Shown: in pieces, positions 23,768-36,826 of the stretch
Numbering within the stretch: position 1 is the first letter of the stretch
How the letters are laid out: every line of letters starts with the position of its first letter
DNA from: Stutzerimonas stutzeri
GTDB lineage: Bacteria; Pseudomonadota; Gammaproteobacteria; Pseudomonadales; Pseudomonadaceae
Length of the DNA: 64,000 nucleotides
NCBI RefSeq assembly: GCF_002890895.1
Contig: NZ_POUL01000003.1
Location: forward strand, 1 to 64,000
Direction of reading: 5' to 3'
The notes under the pieces: model-generated
Told to the model about the DNA's origin: nothing
The model's database searches: none
The model's input: only the letters and a program-made list of their open reading frames with translations
Translations under genes and position numbers: made by a program

Positions 23768-26621
<2,854 letters not shown>

Positions 26622-33578: not shown

Positions 33579-33794
33579 TTACCGAAGCGGTTTTCGGTCT
33601 CGCTCCAGTGAGGCGCTGTCGGTGGTCCATCGCTGATCGATGTCAGTGGGCAACGCAGGGCGCGTACCCAGCTCGTTGTGACTGCCTGTCGCCTGTGCGG
33701 TATCGATCACCACGTCGAGTGCCACGCCGCTGGCCAGCGCCAGCATCGACGCCATTGCAAGGCCCCAGGCCAGGGGTTGGATGACTGCTTTCAT
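33579..33794 (-). CDS. Small exported or membrane-anchored protein of the dnrN operon
   Basis: 71 aa. ATG at 33794 has GGAGG five bases upstream, the best ribosome binding site nearby. Residues 1-28 (MKAVIQPLAWGLAMASMLALASG) are a signal peptide or membrane anchor. The rest is a short polar tail (ATGSHNELGTRPALPTDIDQRW) without Cys and without recognisable domain. It begins 56 bp after the dnrN stop on the same strand, so it probably shares the sigma-54 promoter and would be NO-induced. Family not recognised. Confidence 0.6.
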   Translation of the reverse strand: MKAVIQPLAWGLAMASMLALASGVALDVVIDTAQATGSHNELGTRPALPTDIDQRWTTDSASLERDRKPLR

Positions 33795-33850: not shown

Positions 33851-34522
33851 TCAGTGTGCGGGTGCCTGGGCGAACAGGATGTTGTTCTCCAGATGAATGT
33901 GCTGCATCAGATCGCCACGCAGTTCTTCGAGCCCGCGATACAGCGCACGCCAGGTGTTGCAGGCGTTCGCGGGCGGGGTGATGTCGTTGGTCAGTTCGGC
34001 CAGCCGTTGCAGCGCGGCGCCGTGCTGATCGTGTTCATAGCGCATCACCGCAATCGGACCCTGGGTCTGGGGTAGCTGAGTGTTGCGTTGCAGCATGGGG
34101 AAGAGAATCTGCTCTTCCTTGAGCATGTGGCTCTCCAACTCCTGCTGCATGCTCCAGAGGTGCTCGGCGAGGCCGGTCGGGCAGTCCGGCTTGTTGCCGT
34201 GGACTGTTTCGACACGACTGGCCAGGCGAATGAGTTCGGGCAGTTGGTCGCGATGACGCTCGTGGAAGCGTTCGAGGATGAATTCGATCAGCGCACTTGC
34301 GGGCTCGCCGCGCCAGTCTGGCTCCGTCGCCGGTTCCCCCGTCAGTGCGGCGAGCTCGCCTGCGATGACCTGGGCGTCGAGGTTGCGCTGCAGGGCGGCG
34401 TCGCGCAGCGGGGTGTCTCCACCGCAGCAGAAGTCCAGTTTGTACTGGCGAAACACGCGTGTGGCACCAGGGATCCGGCAGGCCAGGCTGCCCAGGGTTT
34501 GGTCGGTAAGTGCAGTCGTCAT
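33851..34522 (-). CDS. dnrN: DnrN, RIC/YtfE-type di-iron protein for nitrosative damage repair
   Basis: 223 aa. The N-terminal ScdA-like domain has the Cys pair C32-C33 in DFCCGG, followed by a hemerythrin-like four-helix bundle with conserved His/Glu (FHERHRDQLPEL, HMLKEEQILFPM, HDQHGAAL, HIHLENNILF). RIC proteins repair iron-sulfur clusters damaged by NO. The ATG at 34522 is used; a longer frame exists, but the sigma-54 promoter would start transcription near 34547, inside it. Divergent from norR. Confidence 0.93.
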   Translation of the reverse strand: MTTALTDQTLGSLACRIPGATRVFRQYKLDFCCGGDTPLRDAALQRNLDAQVIAGELAALTGEPATEPDWRGEPASALIEFILERFHERHRDQLPELIRLASRVETVHGNKPDCPTGLAEHLWSMQQELESHMLKEEQILFPMLQRNTQLPQTQGPIAVMRYEHDQHGAALQRLAELTNDITPPANACNTWRALYRGLEELRGDLMQHIHLENNILFAQAPAH

Positions 34523-34558
34523 GGCGGCGTTCCATGAGTGGATGTTGCTTGTACTGGA

Positions 34559-34573
34559 GCAAACCCTGTGCCA
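34559..34573 (-). promoter_or_regulatory. Sigma-54 promoter of dnrN
   Basis: On the minus strand TGGCAC-N5-TTGC: GG and GC are separated by exactly 10 bases, as required at -24/-12. Predicted start of transcription is near 34547, giving a leader of about 25 nt before dnrN. It fits with the neighbouring sigma-54 activator NorR. Confidence 0.8.
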
Positions 34574-34613
34574 TGGGCAAGTCATTGATTATCAGAAGGA
34601 AAATAATTTGATT

Positions 34614-34669
34614 GGTGAAATTTACCCAGGCGGTATAGGGTTTAAAAAACCTTACGGGTAGTAATCACC
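34614..34669. promoter_or_regulatory. Three NorR enhancer sites between dnrN and norR
   Basis: Three perfect GGT-N7-ACC dyads at 34614-34626, 34639-34651 and 34657-34669, matching the GT-N7-AC core known for NorR. They lie about 67-122 bp upstream of the predicted dnrN transcription start. The third ends directly before the norR ATG, so NorR binding may also limit its own expression. Confidence 0.8.
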
Positions 34670-36199
34670 ATGATGGAAGAAGCCCTGCTTGCCGATCTTG
34701 TCACCGAGCTGCCCAATGCGGTTCGCCTGCAACGCTTGGTGCACACGCTGCATCAGCGCTTTCGCTGTGGAGCAGTAGTGCTGCTACGCCTCGATGACGA
34801 CACGCTGCGCCCGCTGGCGGCGGTGGGGCTGGTGCAGGAGGCACTGGGGCGGCGCTTCGTGGTGGCTCAGCATCCCCGATTGGCGGCGATTCTCTCGCAA
34901 CGCGAGCCCACCTGGTTCGAGCCTGACAGTCGATTGCCCGACCCCTACGACGGTCTGCTTGATGCGCATGTCGGCGAACCCTTGCCGGTGCACGACTGCA
35001 TGGGCGTCAGCCTGTTCGTCGAGGGCAAACTGTGGGGAGCGCTGACCCTCGATGCACTGCACGCAGGGACTTTCGACGACGACGCGCGGCGCGACCTGCA
35101 GCGCTACACCCTGGTGATCGAGGCGGCCATCCGTATTACCCGGTTGGAGCACGAAAACCGCGGTCTGCGCCTCGCACGCAGTGACGTGCTGGAAACCACA
35201 CAGGTGCCGGGCGACGGCGAGATTCTCGGGCAAAGCGCCGTGATTCGCGAGCTGTTGCGTGAGCTGGAAGTGGTTGCCGACTCGGAGCTGCCGGTGCTGC
35301 TCCTGGGTGAAACCGGCGTGGGCAAGGAGTTGTTCGCACGCTGGCTGCATCGTCACTCGCGGCGGCGCAACAAACCGCTGGTGCTGGTCAATTGCGCGGC
35401 GTTGCCCGAATCGCTGGCCGAAAGCGAGCTGTTCGGTCATGTGAAGGGTGCCTTCTCCGGTGCAACCACCGACCGGCCTGGCCGTTTCGATGCGGCGAAC
35501 GGCGGCACGCTGCTGCTCGATGAGGTAGGCGAGCTACCGCTGGTGGTGCAGGCCAAGCTGCTGCGCACCTTGCAGAATGGGGAAATCCAGCGCCTCGGGG
35601 CTGACAAGCCGCGTCAGGTCGATGTGCGCATTATCGCGGCGACCAACCGCAACTTGCGCGACAGCGTACGTGACGGGCATTTCCGCGCTGATCTCTATCA
35701 CCGTCTTTCGGTTTATCCAGCGCCGATTCCGCCTCTGCGCGAACGCGGCAACGATGTTCTGATTCTGGCGGGCTACTTTCTCGAATTGAACCGTGCGCGT
35801 CTGGGCCTGCGCAGCATGCGGCTGTCGCCCGCTGCCGAACGGGCATTGCTCGGCTATGGCTGGCCGGGCAACGTCCGGGAGCTGGAGCACGTGATCAGCC
35901 GAGCGGCGCTGCGGTTGCTCAGCCGGGGCGCCTCGCGCAGCGAAATCCTCACGCTGGAACCGGACCTGCTGGCGCTGGACAACGAGCACGCCAGCTCTTT
36001 CGCCCCGGCTGCCGATGTAGCGCCCGCGCCCGCAGTAGAGGAGATCGTTTCGTTGCGCGAAGCCGTCGATGGCGCCCAGCGCCAGGCGATCATCCGGGCG
36101 CTGGAGGCCAGTGGAGAGAACTGGGCGCAGGCCGCGCGGTTGCTGGACGTCGATTCGAGCAACCTGCACAAACTGGCGCGGCGGCTGAAACTGAAATGA
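34670..36199 (+). CDS. norR: NorR, NO-sensing sigma-54-dependent activator
   Basis: 509 aa: N-terminal GAF domain (about 20-165), AAA+ domain (about 185-415) and a C-terminal Fis-type HTH. The likely non-heme iron ligands of NorR can be aligned: Arg70, Asp91, Asp94, Cys110, Asp128. Walker A is GETGVGKE. The sigma-54 contact loop reads GAFSGA instead of the usual GAFTGA. No ribosome binding site is visible before ATG 34670, where a NorR site directly abuts the start. Target: divergent dnrN with its sigma-54 promoter. Confidence 0.95.
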   Translation: MMEEALLADLVTELPNAVRLQRLVHTLHQRFRCGAVVLLRLDDDTLRPLAAVGLVQEALGRRFVVAQHPRLAAILSQREPTWFEPDSRLPDPYDGLLDAHVGEPLPVHDCMGVSLFVEGKLWGALTLDALHAGTFDDDARRDLQRYTLVIEAAIRITRLEHENRGLRLARSDVLETTQVPGDGEILGQSAVIRELLRELEVVADSELPVLLLGETGVGKELFARWLHRHSRRRNKPLVLVNCAALPESLAESELFGHVKGAFSGATTDRPGRFDAANGGTLLLDEVGELPLVVQAKLLRTLQNGEIQRLGADKPRQVDVRIIAATNRNLRDSVRDGHFRADLYHRLSVYPAPIPPLRERGNDVLILAGYFLELNRARLGLRSMRLSPAAERALLGYGWPGNVRELEHVISRAALRLLSRGASRSEILTLEPDLLALDNEHASSFAPAADVAPAPAVEEIVSLREAVDGAQRQAIIRALEASGENWAQAARLLDVDSSNLHKLARRLKLK

Positions 36200-36517: not shown

Positions 36518-36826
36518 CGCGACGCCAGTCCGAGACGGAGGCCGCGCACCATTGCGCTGGCCTGATCGCCCGGCCGCGCACGCGTCTGCTTGGGACTTGC
36601 CTCGCCGGGCAGTCTTGAGCCTCCGCCAGCGCTGCCCTTTACCCTGTCCTGGCGACTCGTTTCGCTCGGGGCGCCCTGTTCAGAGCGCCTCCTCAGCTTT
36701 GCCTCCTTGACGCTTATCAATGCCTCCCACTGGAGGCCTACCTAGACTGCCGACTTTCCGTCCGGCCCGGACGGGCACCTTTGCCGCAGGCAGGGTGCGC
36801 ATGATTCCGCATGTCTAGGAGTTGCC
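36518..36826. other. Intergenic region before ubiU
   Basis: No gene seen. It contains a DNR box at 36707-36720 and otherwise only ordinary GC-rich sequence. Confidence 0.6.
36707..36720. promoter_or_regulatory. DNR/FNR box before ubiUVT
   Basis: TTGACGCTTATCAA matches the dyad in 9 of 10 fixed positions and ends 106 bp before the ubiU start. It implies anaerobic induction of O2-independent ubiquinone synthesis together with denitrification. Confidence 0.75.

Follow-up and report, generated by a model that had tools for sequence, protein, structure and literature searches.

A predicted NorR-type nitric oxide switch between the divergent genes dnrN and norR of Stutzerimonas stutzeri

NorR systems already described and the present locus

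Tandem NorR sites and sigma-54 promoters were predicted upstream of hmp and dnrN in Pseudomonas stutzeri by Rodionov et al. 2005 (PMC1274295), with the NorR sites of hmp located at -148, -173 and -192. The locus considered here belongs to the same group of organisms and combines the same gene with the same predicted elements. The hmp sites of the present genome, which start at -148, -172 and -191 from the hmp ATG, match the published ones. It differs from the 2005 prediction in the regulator gene: the unfinished genome used in that study yielded no norR, whereas here norR is the divergent neighbour of dnrN.

Does NorR activate dnrN in other organisms? The orthologue of dnrN, norA, is activated by NorR in R. 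eutropha (PMC9268430), and its expression falls 15-fold when norR is deleted in R. solanacearum (PMC9045102). In both Cupriavidus necator (norR-norAB) and Ralstonia solanacearum (norA-norR), NorR and three GGT-N7-ACC sites are found beside norA, as they are beside dnrN here; in the locus of Cupriavidus agavae the sites lie at -58, -33 and -13 from norR. Several loci of the Cupriavidus/Ralstonia type have qNorB after dnrN, whereas no qNorB is present behind dnrN in the locus described here.

The norR-norVW region of E. coli is similar in having divergent genes, three dyads and a sigma-54 promoter, with IHF reported between them (PMC4601167). In E. coli K-12 the dyads are 24 and 21 bp apart and are accompanied by TGGCACGCAATCTGCA. 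In contrast to dnrN-norR, the target of the E. coli system is a flavorubredoxin, the dyads follow a looser GT-N7-AC pattern, the distance between promoter and enhancers is longer and the third site stands away from the norR ATG. The FhpR-hmp system of Pseudomonas likewise consists of a NorR-like sigma-54 activator divergent from a gene for NO defence (loci L093-L096). Unlike NorR, FhpR belongs to a separate paralogue group, the sensor domains being about 45-50% identical, and its loci are without GGT-N7-ACC triples.

DnrN is a classical NorR target, and the arrangement is already known. An earlier note on this DNA had presented it as a NorR target that drives DnrN rather than a flavorubredoxin or norCB. 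That it is a NorR target is borne out by the family score of the regulator, by its iron ligands and by the conservation of the array beside dnrN; that it is unusual is contradicted by the 2005 prediction for P. stutzeri and by the dependence of norA on norR. The dnrN-norR case leaves the current understanding of NorR unaltered, and its value is that of a clean and complete example of dnrN in the NorR regulon that has the regulator adjoining, which the 2005 prediction lacked.

Genes, promoter and binding sites of the dnrN-norR region

The divergent genes are separated by a spacer of 147 bp, with the ATG of dnrN at 34522 on the minus strand and that of norR at 34670 on the plus strand (coordinates are those of the window, the whole 64-kb stretch of DNA that was analysed). 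Upstream of the dnrN promoter the spacer carries three tandem GGT-N7-ACC (GT-N7-AC) dyads, all of them exact: site 1, GGTGAAATTTACC, at 34614-34626; site 2, GGTTTAAAAAACC, at 34639-34651; and site 3, GGTAGTAATCACC, at 34657-34669. Pattern matching thus returned the dyads at 34614, 34639 and 34657 that had been reported on first reading. Site 3 also touches the norR start codon as claimed, since its last base is 34669 and the ATG begins at 34670; it covers the position of the ribosome binding site. Sites 1 and 2, which are conserved in the genus and family, overlap the probable -35 and the probable -10/+1 of norR, respectively.

The sigma-54 promoter of dnrN, TGGCACAGGGTTTGCT, lies at 34558-34573 on the minus strand and matches the -24/-12 consensus perfectly, with GG at 34572-34571, GC at 34560-34559 and the canonical gap of 10 bp between them. 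It faces dnrN, and the earlier description of a correctly spaced element in this orientation is confirmed. No other zero-mismatch match to the sigma-54 consensus is present in the 64-kb window, and there are seven, this one included, in the 4.45-Mb genome. If the C of the GC is taken as -12, transcription of dnrN is expected to start at about 34547, which would give dnrN a leader some 25 nt long.

The dnrN gene (also ytfE or ric; 33851-34522, minus strand) has its ATG downstream of this promoter and encodes a di-iron iron-sulfur-cluster repair protein of 223 aa. The product scores 334 bits against the NCBIfam model PRK10992 (YtfE), exceeding the curated cut-off of 254, and 257 bits against TIGR03652; its Pfam domains are hemerythrin HHE and ScdA_N, as in the YtfE/RIC family. 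A longer reading frame with a start at 34585 is not likely to be used because it begins upstream of the promoter, and in the shorter form the YtfE family match starts near residue 4.

The norR gene (34670-36199, plus strand) encodes a protein of 509 aa with the GAF-AAA+-HTH organisation of an NO sensor and sigma-54 activator. It scores 698 bits against the NCBIfam equivalog PRK05022 (cut-off 476), and the GAF and Sigma54_activat domains are recognised by Pfam; the C-terminus aligns with that of E. coli NorR, the HTH having no separate score. The protein is 48% identical in alignment to NorR of E. coli K-12, and 89% identity is found with NorR of the S. stutzeri BAL361 locus. In E. coli the non-haem iron is held by Arg75, Asp96, Asp99, Cys113 and Asp131 (PMC4601167), and all five of these NO-sensing ligands are kept here as R70, D91, D94, C110 and D128. 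The loop that contacts sigma-54 reads GAFSGA, as in the aligned copies from Cupriavidus and Pseudomonas, and GAFTGA in E. coli.

No consensus match to a strong sigma-70 promoter was found for norR; a putative -10, TAGGGT at 34636-34641 on the plus strand, is conserved in a 30-locus alignment and reads TATGGT in some relatives. The pairing of the norR leader with the anti-Shine-Dalgarno sequence is weak (-4.0 kcal/mol). Among the genus relatives most have GAGGGT (-6.1 kcal/mol) and some GGAGGGT (-10.0 kcal/mol), in each case overlapping site 3. The earlier note had stated that norR lacks a ribosome binding site and had taken this as a sign of tight self-repression; the site is indeed weak, but it does exist, and no argument for repression can be drawn from its weakness because most relatives combine a better Shine-Dalgarno sequence with the same site 3. 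Autorepression of norR is nevertheless probable, given that its likely -35, -10 and start region lie under sites 1-3 and that the annotation of the E. coli protein is that of a dual regulator.

The consensus for IHF binding is WATCAANNNNTTR. An exact match to it, AATCAATGACTTG, lies between the promoter and site 1 at 34578-34590 on the minus strand. Exact matches are found in 18 of 42 non-redundant spacers, compared with 0.22 expected in shuffles (maximum of 3 in 1000 shuffles), and 15 of the 18 share place and strand. Matches on the plus strand in three distant loci (L089, L092 and L101) were not counted as IHF sites, as they resemble DNR boxes (TTGACGNAAATCAAGG). The IHF-type sequence is absent from the GC-rich relatives and is therefore not essential everywhere; it is conserved in part of the family, where it is a candidate for looping. 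Because IHF has been reported to bend the norVW promoter of E. coli (PMC4601167), a site of this type at dnrN is to be expected and is not new in kind.

Conservation and genomic distribution of the array

The genus was sampled with 41 loci (L009-L038 and L060-L070), the genome under study included. The divergent neighbour of norR is dnrN in 39 of them, and each of these 39 has a sigma-54 element, differing from the consensus at one position or none, at -112 to -116; site 1 lies at -56 to -59 across the genus. Of the 41 loci, 40 have exact copies of all three sites, the distance from start to start being 25 bp and then 18-19 bp. Other Pseudomonadaceae share the layout, as far out as NorR proteins of about 58% identity, and so do Zobellella, Cupriavidus and other Burkholderiales; in this latter set qNorB often comes after dnrN (norA). 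Site 3 is at the norR start throughout, with ACC directly followed by ATG in most loci; in L088-L092 and L101 there is an in-frame ATG just before site 3, and the site would fall within the first codons. More distant NorR-like proteins have qNorB (L098-L100), flavorubredoxin (L097) or hmp (L093-L096) as neighbours. The array of NorR is retained whether its neighbour is dnrN or qNorB.

What happens to the array when genes are lost? Six genomes of the genus without this NorR are also without dnrN (one of these genomes is 71% complete). Two further genomes, G042 and G045, have kept norR but have lost dnrN altogether, together with the sigma-54 element. Sites 1 and 3 have decayed in G045, whereas G042 retains all three, and both genomes retain a triple array at hmp. 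These losses agree with the prediction that the array serves dnrN and norR jointly.

The second triple GGT-N7-ACC array of the genome under study is located upstream of the flavohaemoglobin gene hmp (G000:C16:337812-337867; locus L055, 3313-3368), 300 kb from dnrN-norR. Triples occur at only these two places genome-wide. In six relatives from the genus the spaced triple pattern gave one or two matches per genome, and a reversed control pattern gave zero matches. The ten triple arrays of these relatives comprise five at norR, four of them with dnrN adjoining, and five at hmp. Because a second triple array stands upstream of hmp, NorR is likely to be the activator of a small NO-defence regulon consisting of dnrN and hmp. 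The hmp array is accompanied by a DNR-like box, TTGATTCTGGTCAA, and by a degenerate sigma-54 element, TGGAACGATTATTGAA.

Proposed mechanism, competing explanations and minor observations

Taken together, the dnrN-norR region is, as judged from its sequence, a NorR-type NO switch that is real, strongly conserved and of standard arrangement. NorR made from the plus-strand gene would sit as dimers or as a hexamer on the dyads at 34614, 34639 and 34657. Binding of NO to the mononuclear iron in the GAF domain would release the AAA+ domain, and a bend introduced by IHF at 34578-34590 would bring NorR to the sigma-54 polymerase held at TGGCACAGGGTTTGCT. Starting at about 34547, the polymerase would then transcribe the minus-strand gene dnrN (YtfE/RIC). 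The three dyads also span the region in which norR has its promoter and translation start, through which NorR would probably limit its own synthesis. We consider it very probable that the locus works in this manner, that is, by NO-activated NorR on three sites, looped by IHF to sigma-54 polymerase at PdnrN, with probable autorepression of norR. The sequence itself establishes the sites, the promoter, their spacing and conservation, the exclusivity of the array within the genome and the identities of the genes; activation by NO, action as a hexamer, bending by IHF and autorepression are here inferred from studied relatives.

Could the three dyads be a chance cluster of a common palindrome? Single GGT-N7-ACC matches are frequent in this GC-rich genome, with 31 in the window against 10.8 expected from shuffles. 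GGT-N8-ACC gives 30, which makes the excess of single dyads a coding effect, and the excess was rejected as a sign of a larger regulon; other genome-wide pairs form no triples. When the 147-bp spacer was shuffled 20,000 times with dinucleotides preserved, three dyads arose once and a sigma-54 element seven times. The restriction of triples to NO-defence promoters, the empty reversed control and the retention of all three sites in nearly every genus locus already refute the chance reading, the probability of which is vanishingly small. It may alternatively be proposed that the three sites only repress norR, and that another sigma-54 activator drives dnrN. The sites do overlie the norR start region, and G042 retains all three even though dnrN and the sigma-54 element have been lost. 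Against this, the same triple array is found upstream of hmp, far from norR; the distance from the array to the sigma-54 element is fixed across genera; the array stays when the neighbour changes from dnrN to qNorB; and norA requires norR in R. solanacearum (PMC9045102). We regard a role confined to norR as very unlikely.

The remaining alternative is that DNR/DnrD, an NO regulator of the FNR type, activates dnrN directly, and that NorR is secondary or irrelevant. A review lists ric of P. stutzeri as positively regulated by DnrD and not by NorR (PMC9268430). DNR boxes (TTGAT-N4-ATCAA, at most one mismatch) are common elsewhere in the window, with 8 against 0.8 expected (for example at 25589, 25731, 27851, 32611 and 36707); hmp has a DNR-like box beside its NorR sites, and TTGACGNAAATCAAGG is found in the dnrN spacer of some distant relatives. 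Yet no DNR box with two or fewer mismatches is present between dnrN and norR, the closest sequence having three. The TTGAT half-site that is conserved in the genus pairs with an upstream YAA, as in the IHF pattern, and not with a downstream ATCAA. Moreover, the perfect sigma-54 element points to an enhancer-binding activator, which sigma-54 promoters require. Direct activation by DnrD is therefore improbable, if somewhat less so than a role of the sites in norR repression alone. As the dnrN spacer is without a DNR box, the DnrD dependence of ric in P. stutzeri is probably indirect, through the supply of NO, with NorR as the direct activator. A possible account of a DnrD-dependent dnrN without a DNR box is that NO comes from denitrification enzymes whose levels DnrD raises, and that NorR responds to this NO.

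In a distant NorR group (L088, L089, L092 and L101), TTGACGNNAATCAAGG-like sequences that resemble DNR/ANR boxes lie between the sigma-54 promoter and site 1, hinting at a dual input of NorR and DNR at dnrN in these loci. Within the window, ubiU (start 36827) has the DNR-type box at 36707 about 100 bp upstream of it. Elsewhere in the genome, a pair of dyads at G000:C3:2519, upstream of a small gene, was rejected as a NorR target: it consists of only two sites, and the distance to the gene is too short for a sigma-54 promoter.

A reading frame of 71 aa is found behind dnrN (33579-33794, minus strand), and over its first 60 or so residues it matches the N-terminal part of a roughly 170-aa protein from relatives in the genus. 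This protein has a signal-like N-terminus and a His-rich stretch, and its gene starts only a few bases from the dnrN stop codon (L016, 2908-3420; L033, 638-117). It gave no Pfam or NCBIfam match and was not found beside dnrN in other genera; the copy behind dnrN appears truncated in the window, in L010 and in G027. It is conceivable, though we lean slightly against it, that the NorR transcript of the genus includes this second gene, encoding a secreted or membrane-anchored His-rich protein, and that the two genes thus form a repair operon in which DnrN has an extracytoplasmic partner, which has been partly lost here.
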